Shown: piece after piece, positions 3,316 to 32,762 of the stretch | Numbering within the stretch: position 1 is the first letter of the stretch | Layout: each line of letters opens with the position of its first letter | NCBI RefSeq assembly: GCF_001523745.2 | Contig: NZ_CP013387.1 | Span: 2,046,001-2,110,000, forward strand | DNA: 64,000 nucleotides | From: Burkholderia mayonis | Lineage (GTDB): Bacteria > Pseudomonadota > Gammaproteobacteria > Burkholderiales > Burkholderiaceae | Direction of reading: 5' to 3' | Translations under genes and position numbers: made by a program | Notes under the pieces: model-generated | What the model was told of the DNA's origin: nothing | The model's database searches: none | What the model saw: only the letters and a program-made list of their open reading frames with translations

Positions 3316-3332
3316 GCGCAAATTGGGTAATC
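3303..3332. promoter_or_regulatory. Putative prophage repressor operator dyad
   Basis: GATTACC at 3303-3309 and GGTAATC at 3326-3332 form a perfect 7-bp inverted repeat with 23-bp centre-to-centre spacing. One arm is inside the spacer of the leftward promoter and the other abuts its -35, and the dyad also touches the translation start of the repressor gene. This geometry fits autoregulation plus repression of the lytic operon. Confidence 0.6.
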
Positions 3333-3334
3333 GT

Positions 3335-3763
3335 ATGGATTCGATAGGCGAGCGCCTGCGCGAAGAGCGTGAGCGATTGGGGTATAGCCAGACGGCATTC
3401 GGGGCGCTGGCGGAAGTGACCAAGCAATCGCAGATCAAGTACGAGAAAGGCGAGCGTTCGCCGGACGCTAGCTACCTCGCGGCAATCATGCGTGTCGGGG
3501 CTGATGTCCAGTACATCGTCGGGGCAATTCGGTCGTCGATGGCGTTAGCGCCCGATGAGCAAGAACTCGTCTCGCGATATCGGGCAGCGTCGCTTGAAGT
3601 CAAAGCCGCCGCAATCGGTGCGCTTACGGCCGCAAGCACGACAAAGAGCGCGACCCGTCAGGAACAGGTCTTTCACGGATCAGTAGGGCAGGCCGTAAAG
3701 GTCGAGGGGGGCCTCGATCAGCAGGGAATCAGTTTTTTCGGTAAAGGCAAGAAGAGAAAATGA
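3335..3763 (+). CDS. XRE-family prophage repressor
   Basis: A 142-aa protein from the ATG at 3335 (an upstream in-frame TTG at 3323 is less likely). Residues 1-65 are a typical HTH_3 domain: IGERLREERERLGYSQTAFG, then KQSQIKYEKGERSPDASYLA. A helical middle follows (LAPDEQELVSRYRA). The C-terminus has a short beta-type Gly/Val motif (HGSVGQAVKVEGG) instead of a LexA-type peptidase, so RecA-driven self-cleavage is not expected. Its stop overlaps the next gene's ATG (ATGA), so repressor and membrane protein are co-translated. It is probably the maintenance repressor of this prophage. Confidence 0.85.
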   Translation: MDSIGERLREERERLGYSQTAFGALAEVTKQSQIKYEKGERSPDASYLAAIMRVGADVQYIVGAIRSSMALAPDEQELVSRYRAASLEVKAAAIGALTAASTTKSATRQEQVFHGSVGQAVKVEGGLDQQGISFFGKGKKRK

Positions 3764-29191: not shown

Positions 29192-29440
29192 ATGGCAAAC
29201 AGTCAGCGCGCGCCCACGCCGCAATTGGCGGCCGGCGCACTCGATATCCGTTGTGGCCAGTGCCGCCGCAAGCTGGCCTCGGGCCGGTACATCGAGCTGA
29301 GCATCAAGTGCCCCCGTTGCGGGGCGATCAATCATCTGAAGGCCGCGAGCCTCGAACCAGCGCGCCACCGAGCGCCCAGACACATGGAATTTTGTAATGG
29401 GCGCGAAAATGCCTCTCCCGGTCAAACAGCCGGGTCGTAA
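29192..29440 (+). CDS. com: Com-like zinc-finger translational regulator
   Basis: An 82-aa protein from the ATG at 29192. Cys21-x2-Cys24 and Cys40-x2-Cys43 (DIRCGQCRRKL, then IKCPRCGAINHL) form the zinc ribbon of the Mu Com family. Mu Com is known to bind the com-mom mRNA and open the mom translation start. Here the 3' end overlaps the next gene by 44 bp, and a hairpin covering that gene's AUG lies inside the com coding region (29372-29404), as in Mu. The C-terminus is longer than in Mu Com. I infer the same regulatory job for a different effector. Confidence 0.85.
   Translation: MANSQRAPTPQLAAGALDIRCGQCRRKLASGRYIELSIKCPRCGAINHLKAASLEPARHRAPRHMEFCNGRENASPGQTAGS
29372..29404 (+). promoter_or_regulatory. 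Translation-blocking hairpin over downstream start codon
   Basis: GCGCCCA (29372-29378) and TGGGCGC (29398-29404) pair perfectly, with a 19-nt loop. The 3' arm contains the last two bases of the ATG at 29397-29399, and the only ribosome-site candidate (GGA at about 29386) is in the loop. In phage Mu the mom start is hidden in a stem-loop and opened by Com; the match in layout suggests the same control here. Confidence 0.65.
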
Positions 29441-29561
29441 CGGGTACAAATACAAGCCGCGGTACGGCGTTGTCGTCGTCTGTCGGGATGAAGCTGAACA
29501 GCAGGCGGCCTATCAGGCTCTGCGCAAGCAGGGTTACAAGCTGAAGGTGGTGTGCGTATGA
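29397..29561 (+). CDS. 54-aa protein between com and the ABC/GNAT gene
   Basis: A small basic protein (MGAKMPLPVKQPGRNGYKYK at the N-terminus), ending in a beta-alpha-beta-like block (YGVVVVCRDEAEQQAAYQAL, then RKQGYKLKVVCV). Its ATG lies in the hairpin at 29372-29404 and its stop overlaps the ATG of the ABC/GNAT gene (ATGA), so it couples the translation of the effector genes to Com. It has two Cys, but no zinc motif. I do not recognise a family. It may be a real subunit or mainly a translational relay. Confidence 0.72.
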   Translation: MGAKMPLPVKQPGRNGYKYKPRYGVVVVCRDEAEQQAAYQALRKQGYKLKVVCV

Positions 29562-30685
29562 AGCTGGCCGTACACCACCGCTGCGCCGACTCGACGTCGT
29601 ATCGCGCAGCGCGCGTTAAATCTCTGTTCAACGTCGACGATGGCCGGCGCTTCGATCTCGAGGCGGATCTGCCGATCGACGACCAGGACTGGCAAATCGG
29701 CGTTATCGTCGGGCCGTCCGGCTCAGGGAAGACCAGCCTCGGAAAGGCGATCGGGCCGTTGTACGCACCCGCATGGCCGGCGCGCAAACCGATCATCGAC
29801 GCGATCGCGCCCAAGGGCTCCTTCGACGCGGTGACGGCGGCCTTGTCCGCCGTGGGTCTCGGTAGCGTGCCAACATGGCTCCGGCCATTTTCCGTGCTTT
29901 CCAACGGCGAGCAGTTCCGAGCGACCTTGGCTCGGCTCGTATGTGAAGCGCCGCAACTGGCTGTCATCGACGAATTCTCGTCTGTAGTGGATCGGCAGAT
30001 CGCGCGAATCGGCGCCGGCGCCTTCTCGAAGGCATGGAGGCGCACAGGCGGCCGCGTCGTGCTCCTGTCCTGTCACTACGACATCCTTGATTGGGTCCAG
30101 CCGGATTGGGTTTTCGACACCGCATCCGGCTCGTTTGAACGGGGGCATCTTCGGCGCCGGCCGCCCATCGAGTTGGACGTCCGGCAAACCGACTGGCAAT
30201 ACTGGCCTCTGTTTGAGCCGCATCACTATCTGAAGCTGCCCCGGATGATCGCGGCGACCAATTACGTCGGATGGATCGACGGCGCGCCTGTTGCGCACCT
30301 CGCCGTCAGCACACGTCCAGGTCTCATTGAGGCCCGCGCATGCCGCCTCGTCGTGATGCCTGAGTGGCAAGGCGCGGGCGTGGGCATGCGGTTTCTGAAC
30401 GTGGTTTGCGACGCCTGGAATCGCGGCCGCAACCGGTACGGCAGACCGATGCGGACGCTTTTCCATACGAGTCATCCGGGACTTGCGGCCGCGCTGCGCC
30501 GCGATCGACGCTGGACTCAGGTTTCCGGCGGCTTGGTTGGCGAGAGCCGGCAGCGTTCAGTTGAATCGCTGGCGGCCAGTCGCGCGCGCGCCGGCGCTGA
30601 GGGAAAGGCGACCGGCGGCTACGGCGGTCATTTCCGGGCGGTTCAAGGATTCCGTTTCCTTGGCGAGGAGGCGGCATGCGCTTGA
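29558..30685 (+). CDS. ABC-ATPase/GNAT fusion, putative DNA-modification enzyme
   Basis: A 375-aa protein. Residues 45-200 are an ABC-type ATPase without membrane domains: Walker A GPSGSGKT (52-59), signature LSNGEQ (114-119), Walker B LAVIDE (134-139, catalytic E139) and H-loop H173. Residues 215-330 are GNAT-like, with acetyl-CoA motif LVVMPEWQGAGVGMRFL (264-280) and a Mom-reminiscent block FHTSHPGLAAALRR (302-315). Mu Mom, which makes the hypermodified adenine of Mu DNA, is also GNAT-like and also sits behind com. I infer a Mom-like base or DNA acylation enzyme with an ATP-driven DNA or partner-handling module. RNA or protein as substrate cannot be excluded. Confidence 0.8.
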   Translation: MKLAVHHRCADSTSYRAARVKSLFNVDDGRRFDLEADLPIDDQDWQIGVIVGPSGSGKTSLGKAIGPLYAPAWPARKPIIDAIAPKGSFDAVTAALSAVGLGSVPTWLRPFSVLSNGEQFRATLARLVCEAPQLAVIDEFSSVVDRQIARIGAGAFSKAWRRTGGRVVLLSCHYDILDWVQPDWVFDTASGSFERGHLRRRPPIELDVRQTDWQYWPLFEPHHYLKLPRMIAATNYVGWIDGAPVAHLAVSTRPGLIEARACRLVVMPEWQGAGVGMRFLNVVCDAWNRGRNRYGRPMRTLFHTSHPGLAAALRRDRRWTQVSGGLVGESRQRSVESLAASRARAGAEGKATGGYGGHFRAVQGFRFLGEEAACA

Positions 30686-31290
30686 TGATCGTCGGCCAGA
30701 AATGGCTCGGCGCTGAGCTGCTCCGGCAGTGCGCGAGCGCCGGGCACGATGTAGCTGCCGTCGCCGCGCCGGGTGCGGTTGGCGAGGACTACGACCGCCT
30801 GTATGCGGCCGCGCAGCAGCTCGGGGTGCCGGCGCTCGTCGTCGGCCGTCGGCTCGACGCGGACGCTGTTCCGGACGGCGTGGACCTCATTCTTGCCGCC
30901 CACGCCCATGCGTTCATCCCGCGCGCCGCTCGCGAGCGGGCGCGGCTTGGCGTTCTGGGATACCACCCGTCGCTGCTGCCGCGCCATCGAGGGCGGGACG
31001 CCGTGCGCTGGGCTATTCACATGCGGGAGCCTATAACGGGCGGCACGCTCTACTGGCTCGACGATGGAGCAGACACCGGTCCGATCGCGTTACAGGATTG
31101 GTGCCATATCCGGCCGGAGGATACGCCGGCGTCGCTCTGGCGCCGGGAGCTAGGCCCAATGGGACTGCGCCTGTTTGCGGCTGCGCTGGCGATGATTGAA
31201 GAAGGCGAGTGCCGGCAGCTTGCGCAAGACTCCGCGCTGGCCACGTGGGAGCCGGCGTTTCATTCGAAGTCGCTGGCCGCGGCGGCGTAA
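30676..31290 (+). CDS. Formyltransferase-fold protein with altered active site
   Basis: A 204-aa single-domain protein of the formyl-transferase N fold: MIVGQKWLGAELLRQ start, GYHPSLLPRHRGRDAVRW (95-112) and DDGADTGPI (129-137). H97 and D133 of the usual Asn-His-Asp triad are present, but the Asn position (two before His) is Gly95. No C-terminal tRNA-binding domain exists, so it is not a tRNA formyltransferase. A GAGGAGG ribosome site precedes the ATG, which overlaps the ABC/GNAT gene by 10 bp. It likely acts with that enzyme, supplying or transferring a one-carbon or acyl group. Confidence 0.78.
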   Translation: MRLMIVGQKWLGAELLRQCASAGHDVAAVAAPGAVGEDYDRLYAAAQQLGVPALVVGRRLDADAVPDGVDLILAAHAHAFIPRAARERARLGVLGYHPSLLPRHRGRDAVRWAIHMREPITGGTLYWLDDGADTGPIALQDWCHIRPEDTPASLWRRELGPMGLRLFAAALAMIEEGECRQLAQDSALATWEPAFHSKSLAAAA

Positions 31291-31470: not shown

Positions 31471-32661
31471 TCAGCCGGCGAGGCCGCGCGCGAGATCGCC
31501 GCGGATGTCCGCCGGATCCTCGAGCCCGACGGCGAGCCGGATCAGCCCTTCGGTGATTCCCGCCGCCTCGCGCGCTTCCGGCGCGATCCGGCTGTGCGTC
31601 GTCGTCGCCGGATGCGTGATCGTCGTGCGCGTGTCGCCGAGGTTCGCGGTGATCGACACGATCTTCGTGCCGTCGATCACGCGCCATGCGTTCGCGCGCT
31701 GCTGTTCCGGCGTGTCGCCCGTCAACTCGAACGACACGACCGAGCCGCCCGACTTCTGCTGACGCTTCGCGAGCGCGTATTGCGGATGCGATTCGAGCCC
31801 CGGATAGAACACGCGCTTGACGGCCGGATGCGCTTCGAGCCAGCGGGCGATCTCGAGCGCGTTCTCCGACTGCCGGTTCACGCGCAACGACAGCGTCTCC
31901 ATCCCTTTCAGCAGCACCCATGCGTTGAACGCGGAAAGCGTCGGCCCCGCAGTGCGCACGAACGGGAACACCTTCTCCATGATGAACGCCTTCGAGCCAA
32001 CGAGCGCGCCGCCCAGCACGCGGCCCTGGCCGTCGAGGAACTTGGTCGCCGAGTGCATCACGACGTCCGCGCCGAGCTTGAGCGGCTGCTGCAGCACCGG
32101 GCTGCAGAAACAGTTGTCGACGACAAAGAGCGCGTTCGCTTCCTTCGCGATCTTGCCGATCGCCTCGATGTCGGCGAGCTCGGTCATCGGATTCGACGGC
32201 GTCTCGAGGAAGAACATCTTCGTCTCGGGACGCACGGCGGCGCGCCACGCGTCGAGATCGGCCGGATCGACGAACGTCGTCGTGATGCCGAACTTCGCGA
32301 AGATCTGCCCGAACATGCCGAGCGTCGAGCCGAACAGGCTGCGCGAGCTGACGAGGTGGTCGCCCGCCTGCAGCGCGGCCATCACGACCGACATGATCGC
32401 CGCCATCCCGGACGCGGTCGCGATGCACGCCTCGCCGCCTTCGAGCGCCGCGAGGCGATCCTGAAACATCGTGACGGTCGGGTTCGTGAAGCGCGAGTAT
32501 GTGTAATAGTCTTCCGAATGCTTGAAGCGCTCGGCCGCCTCGGCCGCGCTCGCATAGCAGAAGCTCGACGTCAGGAAGATCGCTTCCGAATGCTCGTTGA
32601 ATTCGCTGCGCAGCGTGCCCGAGCGGACGGCGAGCGTGTCGAAGTTGAGAGAGTCGTCCAT
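31471..32661 (-). CDS. metZ: O-succinylhomoserine sulfhydrylase
   Basis: A 396-aa PLP enzyme from the ATG at 32661; upstream in-frame starts would enter the leader. It replaces succinyl of O-succinylhomoserine by sulfide to give homocysteine in methionine synthesis. Cys/Met-metabolism motifs are visible: YTYSRFTNPTVTMFQDRLAA, the PLP lysine in HSATKFLDGQGRVLGG and the C-terminal ANLGDTRTTITHPATTTHSR. A SAM-II-like aptamer lies in the 5' leader (32776-32873). The prophage is inserted downstream of its 3' end and leaves the gene intact. Confidence 0.93.
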   Translation of the reverse strand: MDDSLNFDTLAVRSGTLRSEFNEHSEAIFLTSSFCYASAAEAAERFKHSEDYYTYSRFTNPTVTMFQDRLAALEGGEACIATASGMAAIMSVVMAALQAGDHLVSSRSLFGSTLGMFGQIFAKFGITTTFVDPADLDAWRAAVRPETKMFFLETPSNPMTELADIEAIGKIAKEANALFVVDNCFCSPVLQQPLKLGADVVMHSATKFLDGQGRVLGGALVGSKAFIMEKVFPFVRTAGPTLSAFNAWVLLKGMETLSLRVNRQSENALEIARWLEAHPAVKRVFYPGLESHPQYALAKRQQKSGGSVVSFELTGDTPEQQRANAWRVIDGTKIVSITANLGDTRTTITHPATTTHSRIAPEAREAAGITEGLIRLAVGLEDPADIRGDLARGLAG

Positions 32662-32725
32662 GTTCCGTTCATCCGTTTTCAAGCGCATCGCCGCCATGCG
32701 CGCCGCGCGGCGAATGCGCAGACCA

Positions 32726-32762
32726 ACAAAAAGCCCGCTCATGCGTCGGCATCAGCGGGCTT
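32726..32762 (-). terminator. Terminator in the metZ leader / after purF
   Basis: On the minus strand AAGCCCGCT (32762-32754) and AGCGGGCTT (32739-32731) form a perfect 9-bp stem followed by a T-run (TTTTTG). It lies between the SAM-II-like aptamer and metZ, so it may serve as the riboswitch expression platform, or simply end the purF transcript. Confidence 0.8.

Follow-up and report, generated by a model that had tools for sequence, protein, structure and literature searches.

A four-gene operon among the phage late genes of a 64,000-nucleotide stretch of Burkholderia mayonis DNA (contig NZ_CP013387.1; the window) is described here. It is read, with slightly more belief than doubt, as a Com-regulated, ABC ATPase-driven operon for acylation of phage DNA bases at the end of the late genes. 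The parts of this reading differ in strength. DNA is quite probably the target, acyl-coenzyme A (acyl-CoA)-dependent chemistry of the GNAT domain is likely, and formyl as the transferred group is tentative. The genes are com, a 54-amino-acid (54-aa) open reading frame (ORF), an ABC ATPase fused to a GNAT domain (ABC-GNAT) and a formyltransferase-like gene (FT; Table 1). Their coordinates and their Pfam and PHROG matches bear out the four overlapping genes reported in a preliminary description of this DNA, and the successive overlaps, from the ORF coordinates, are 44, 4 and 10 bases. Relatives of ABC-GNAT are encoded in 507 viral-contig and 202 genome stretches, and the operon is therefore not a chance assembly. 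The loci of relatives were the best 80 of the 507 and the best 80 of the 202; some prophages occur in both sets, so that the clade, partner and FT locus counts below come from non-independent phages.

The com product matched Pfam Zn_ribbon_Com (PF10122; E 5.6e-15, 55 bits against a cut-off of 22.9) and phrog_6417 (E 5.1e-22). In clade A, which holds only the nearest relatives, com was present at 126 of the 162 loci with enough upstream sequence, the window included. A Com query against the viral contigs returned 14 loci only. Two small hairpins, with starts 22 bases apart, lie within the 3′ end of com. Their motif equals the Com target selected in vitro (SELEX), reported in PMC6483171 as CC(N)2-3GAG in a hairpin loop; the same paper reports that reactivity of Mu RNA fell at two GA sites. 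At least one hairpin was found in 90 of 110 distinct Com loci and two in 53, against means of 6.0 and 0.1 in dinucleotide shuffles. The stems occur in 26 forms among the Com loci.

Covariation was scored on an alignment of all 110 Com segments. Standard pairs filled 90.6% of cells, a percentage biased in favour of the tested structure over slid versions, as that structure was the window's own. Both-sided changes were counted in 144 cells against 24.9 after shuffling (0 of 500 shuffles reached 144), and the covariation score was 0.459 against 0.150 shuffled and at most 0.108 with slid partners. By a weaker measure, 8 of 8 pairs had any double change against 6.3 shuffled, which 41 of 500 shuffles equalled. 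The first count, on 69 hand-picked segments of the 110, had given 78 double-changed cells against 23.0 and a score of 0.397 against at most 0.122 slid; under the counting rule the hairpin was lacking from 13 of these 69 segments and from 15 of the other 41, and the count was redone on all 110. The motif was present 300-100 bases upstream of the ABC-GNAT ORF at 102 of 126 Com loci and 3 of 36 Com-less clade A loci, and in control stretches at 22 of 111 and 9 of 33 respectively (window excluded throughout). Bare CCNN(N)GAG occurred at least once in 102 of the 110 loci (shuffled mean 40.5) and at least twice in 58 (15.3). This bare motif is weak alone and the hairpin form bears the weight. The hairpin was first spotted by eye and then counted in those same loci; independent checks on it come from covariation, from the further phages with Com and from the SELEX motif in print. 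Judged from the sequence, Com control of the operon is genuine and goes beyond the mere neighbourhood of com. The Com-led cargo of the preliminary description thus stands, with linkage and twin covarying hairpins on its side.

Twelve further annotated Com phages were examined besides Mu and Komp_PAO1_1; they were chosen from lists of 26 and 31 records, and several resemble one another closely. com precedes a DNA methylase or Mom gene in 11 of the 12. The gene after com is a D12 adenine methylase in B3, Bise, UMP151 and TJ1, and weakly so in Mcat3; an N4/N6 methylase in Mana and Smp131 (by Pfam) and in AP3 and KS5 (by annotation); an annotated adenine methyltransferase in Phipami28; and Mom in PAN70. 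In DVM-2008 (locus L395, 2025-2998) com is followed by an unassigned 214-aa gene without a Pfam match, beside holin and colicin M-like genes. Hairpin starts lie at most 60 bases from the cargo start in 10 of the 12 (a single hairpin in KS5), and also in Komp_PAO1_1. TJ1 and DVM-2008 depart from the other Com phages, with a single hairpin found, near -100. The one hairpin of Mu is at the annotated mom start. The hairpins of B3 (L374, 1295-1328) are found again at L389-L394 and L397-L399, ahead of genes for DNA methylases and Mom in Mu-like and P2-like phages, and the operator is therefore portable across phage types. The case for DNA as the substrate of the window cargo is made best by this sharing of one Com switch among methylase, Mom and ABC-GNAT genes, which also supports the DNA modification or anti-restriction role first suggested for this operon. 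Komp_PAO1_1 and Gordonia phage AnClar are phages with an operon of this kind. In Bise a reverse transcriptase family gene adjoins the com-methylase pair (L399, 260-1291).

The 54-aa product matched phrog_28816 over its full length (E 8.7e-31). In Com-less relatives the same domain forms the last part of a ParB-like protein encoded directly 5′ of ABC-GNAT in most cases, with L002 and L148 as exceptions. Among 15 long ORFs without Com, 13 appeared ParB-like (L023 and L089 identical in sequence) and 2 were apparent spurious extensions; the ORFs from Com loci were short in 128 of 128. Seven of the 13 ParB-like proteins were scanned with Pfam, and three scored above the ParB_N cut-off and three about 1 bit below; the remaining one, from Gordonia phage AnClar, has no Pfam match and matches a ParB PHROG. 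The ParB regions match a phage DNA methyltransferase PHROG as well. Com and ParB counts were made on 313 of 336 loci, those with less than 700 bases upstream being left out, and kinship makes them non-independent. When a ParB_N model was used, 126 of the 162 clade A loci had Com and 10 an adjacent ParB; no locus had both, and 26 had neither. No co-occurrence of Com and a ParB domain was seen among the relatives examined. ParB was present at 40 of 40 loci of the Pmp13 clade. Neither was found at 23 of 34 loci of the Jace clade and 66 of 69 of the Nonlabens clade, and a Com or ParB partner is therefore not universal. In Streptococcus phage Javan141 (L171, 3965-5028) and similar loci, ABC and GNAT are encoded in two successive ORFs after a ParB-like gene annotated as a DNA modification methylase.

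ABC-GNAT matched phrog_11143 at 551 bits and Pfam ABC_tran at E 7.6e-08. Its length and residue numbers are counted from an ATG; the listed ORF begins at a GTG two codons upstream. The ABC half carries a Walker A motif GPSGSGKT (G52-T59), the signature LSNGE, a Walker B motif VIDE and an H-loop histidine, H173. The GNAT half has the motif A sequence QGAGVG (Q271-G276). For the window GNAT half alone, Acetyltransf_1 and Acetyltransf_7 stayed under their cut-offs; at E 0.01 the two models were matched by 57 and 60 of 60 GNAT halves, the window included. Its motif and its modelled fold (predicted local distance difference test score 88.6) place the GNAT half among ordinary acyl-CoA GNATs. The term Mom-like, taken as homology, was not upheld: against the Mom profile the hhalign probability was 0.5%, i.e. 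no profile similarity, none of 60 GNAT members matched Pfam Mom (PF25680), and Mom homology of this half was rejected at the level of sequence. Mom has a solved structure, 8bv8, which was absent from the 50 structure matches listed for the GNAT model, an absence that does not exclude a Mom fold. ABC-GNAT is matched by 58 annotated phage records, some of them, e.g. Rhizobium phages, in the ABC half only.

FT matched Pfam Formyl_trans_N (E 3.9e-20) and phrog_9240 (E 3.2e-71). Its closest relative is the hydrolase domain of 10-formyltetrahydrofolate (10-formyl-THF) dehydrogenase (FDH); PurN and Fmt share the fold. The FT triad H97/S99/D133 equals the FDH triad H106/S108/D142. The HypX triad is reported as H74/D80/D109. 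Two residues before the catalytic His, window FT has Gly95 where PurN, Fmt and ArnA of E. coli have Asn, and this amine-transfer Asn is present in 0 of 111 FT family members (exact duplicates removed). FT probably makes formyl-CoA for the GNAT, because it has the FDH-type H/S/D triad and its family lacks the Asn. The preliminary description took FT for a second group-transfer enzyme. The fold stands, but FT probably provides a thioester as acyl donor and does not itself act on DNA, as far as residues and relatives indicate. In L002 (2312-2962) and other Gordonia phages the third gene, called tRNA-methyltransferase in several records, is an FT relative. Within 2.6 kb after ABC-GNAT, locus L057 is without FT and has a 502-aa ORF and an ORF with, by eye, a start like that of a Dam-type methylase.

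The twin covarying hairpins lie shortly before the first cargo gene, and the overlap of the cargo genes allows one translational switch to serve them all. In the proposed pathway Com would open the 54-aa gene to translation, and coupling would extend this to ABC-GNAT and FT. FT would transfer the formyl group of 10-formyl-THF to the thiol of CoA, and the GNAT half would use formyl-CoA to acylate phage DNA at an exocyclic amine, either N6 of adenine or N4 of cytosine. Within the fusion, the ABC part, a putative soluble dimerising ATPase, would spend ATP on clamping or remodelling DNA to expose the base, and the 54-aa domain may dock the ATPase or help to select DNA. The packaged DNA would then resist host restriction, as with Mom. 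Three points limit this scheme. Formylation of an exocyclic amine is expected to give a labile product. Of the 118 clade A loci that extend 800 bases downstream, 19 lack FT. A stem in the window takes in the start region of the 54-aa gene (z -0.77), and relatives show scarcely any excess over shuffles. Start-codon sequestration was 0.546 in 111 Com segments, 0.532 in mononucleotide shuffles and 0.452 at ABC-GNAT starts (starts picked by rule), and is unsupported as a general feature of the 54-aa gene.

It is unlikely that the target of ABC-GNAT is instead a protein or RNA of the host (ribosomal protein, RNA polymerase or tRNA), acylated for takeover, with FT as an Fmt-like helper. The DNA methylase or Mom cargo of the other Com phages, the ParB-like partner and an FT without the Asn of Fmt all argue against it. 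Less likely again is a two-step hypermodification by analogy with PurN and glycinamide, in which the GNAT would add an amine-bearing acyl group (e.g. glycyl) to the base and FT would formylate that amine on DNA. PurN and Fmt have the FT fold, the product would be a stable formamide, and the route would parallel Mom, whose mark is glycinamide-like. The amine-transfer Asn is, on the other side, absent from all 111 family members, and the nearest relatives use a thiol acceptor.

The distribution of FT was examined on an ABC-GNAT tree of 135 rows below 75% identity, out of 320. FT is confined to one clade (Shimodaira-Hasegawa-like approximate likelihood-ratio test, SH-aLRT, 100), with FT in 41 of 51 rows, none in 7 and no call in 3. 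Its presence required 10 changes on the tree against 35.5 when shuffled, and the sole FT among 85 distant loci, L281, was placed within the FT clade. It is very unlikely that FT is a 10-formyl-THF hydrolase tuning folate or purine pools in replication, separate from the GNAT step: its closest relative is a hydrolase domain, but its gene overlaps the end of ABC-GNAT and is limited to one ABC-GNAT clade, which ties the two functions, and in the full FDH that domain is reported to serve a carrier-bound thiol.

In the sister clade (13 rows, SH-aLRT 97) a class-III CoA-transferase-like protein occurs in 10 rows. The 39 loci fetched with the phage Jace protein have a CoA-transferase-like gene in 18 and an aspartate 1-decarboxylase gene in 14; the CoA-transferase-like sequence is identical in seven of these loci (L253-L258, L263), so that the independent number is smaller. 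Two proteins of each kind were scanned, with E 5.1e-32 and 2.0e-33 for Asp_decarbox and E 5e-05 (0.3 bits below the cut-off) and 2.2e-08 for CoA_transf_3. The CoA-transferase-like proteins, of about 220 aa, align with no more than the initial part of the Pfam model, and no solved structure matched them. In L253-L258 and L263 a tandem ABC-GNAT pair flanks the aspartate decarboxylase and CoA-transferase-like genes, and one copy may represent a second specificity. Two unrelated CoA-thioester enzymes beside the same core would agree with clade-dependent donor use by the GNAT. A wider and more doubtful generalisation is a modular phage machine for DNA acylation from CoA thioesters, in which the ABC-GNAT core is constant, many clades have a front end of ParB or Com type, and the acyl-donor enzyme is exchangeable. 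The mark would then follow the partner: a formylated base with the FDH-type FT, a beta-alanylated base with aspartate decarboxylase and the CoA-transferase-like protein, and an acyl group from host acyl-CoA, e.g. acetyl-CoA, where there is no partner.

If these readings hold, the prediction of DNA acylation by ABC-GNAT becomes testable by mass, with shifts expected from chemistry of +28 Da in the formyl clade, +71 in the aspartate decarboxylase clade and +42 in the bare clades, and phages would build their own acyl-CoA for DNA modification. If the modular reading is true, its marks would be novel types of DNA modification, and an ABC ATPase would assist in making them. The covariation-backed RNA operator can be used to screen phage genomes for Com-regulated DNA modification genes, including genes annotated as hypothetical.

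Table 1. Features of the operon and the gene that follows it (window coordinates)
Feature	Position	Strand	Description	Basis
com	29192-29440	+	Mu Com-type zinc-ribbon translational activator, 82 aa	Pfam Zn_ribbon_Com, phrog_6417
Com operator hairpin 1	29340-29352	+	AGGC-CGCGA-GCCT, contains CCGCGAG	covariation over 110 loci
Com operator hairpin 2	29362-29375	+	GCGC-CACCGA-GCGC, contains CCACCGAG	covariation over 110 loci
54-aa protein	29397-29561	+	stand-alone C-terminal domain of ParB-like partner	phrog_28816
ABC ATPase-GNAT fusion	29558-30685	+	375 aa	phrog_11143, Pfam ABC_tran
FT, formyltransferase fold	30676-31290	+	204 aa; proposed formyl-CoA (thiol) formyltransferase	Formyl_trans_N, phrog_9240
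Cys/Met pyridoxal phosphate enzyme gene	31471-32742		chromosomal; comes after the FT gene

Pfam and PHROG searches of the window placed phage lysis, packaging, head and tail genes at 6446-29054; the products include endolysin, terminase, a Mu F-like protein, major head, sheath, tape measure, tail, fibre and fibre assembly proteins. The operon sits 3′ of the tail fibre and fibre assembly genes. Its assignment to a Mu right end was not borne out, as neither a transposase among the window ORFs scanned nor the ends of the prophage were found. The operon DNA is single-copy in the source genome (6.59 Mb, two contigs), and megablast of the window phage genes against phage records gave no match. A DUF3102 protein is encoded near the left edge (919-1830, - strand) and a helix-turn-helix protein at 3323-3763.

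ABC ATPase-GNAT proteins had already been predicted to acylate phage DNA (Iyer et al. 2013, cited in PMC7824862). The preliminary description named no experimentally described system of this composition, and no experiment on DNA acylation by ABC-GNAT surfaced in the literature search; as prediction, such acylation was already in print (PMC7824862). The same search, with Iyer et al. 2013 outside its reach, gave nothing on com with ABC-GNAT and a formyltransferase, or on ABC-GNAT with aspartate decarboxylase. The predicted system belongs to the same family, and Tenacibaculum phage pT24 is among the tblastn matches of the window protein (by phage name, not accession). The passage on ABC-GNAT in PMC7824862 mentions no Com, formyltransferase, ParB tail or donor-enzyme swap, and Iyer et al. 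2013 may hold more. FT shares its fold with the FDH hydrolase domain and the N-terminal domain of HypX, and with FDH also the H/S/D triad and the loss of the Asn, whereas window FT stands alone beside a GNAT, without a carrier, dehydrogenase or enoyl-CoA hydratase-like domain. The operon resembles Mu com-mom in its Com zinc ribbon, gene overlap, Com hairpin before the cargo and position after the tail fibre genes. It differs in a cargo GNAT not detectably related to Mom, in the added ABC ATPase and formyltransferase, and in two hairpins of the counted kind where Mu has one. In the Com-methylase modules of B3, AP3, KS5, Mana, Bise, UMP151 and others a DNA-modifying gene likewise follows Com and these hairpins, but their cargo is a DNA methylase and that of the window is ABC-GNAT. 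DNA acylation by ABC-GNAT had thus been predicted before; Com control, the ParB-tail 54-aa protein, a probable thiol-type FT and an apparent donor swap are added here.
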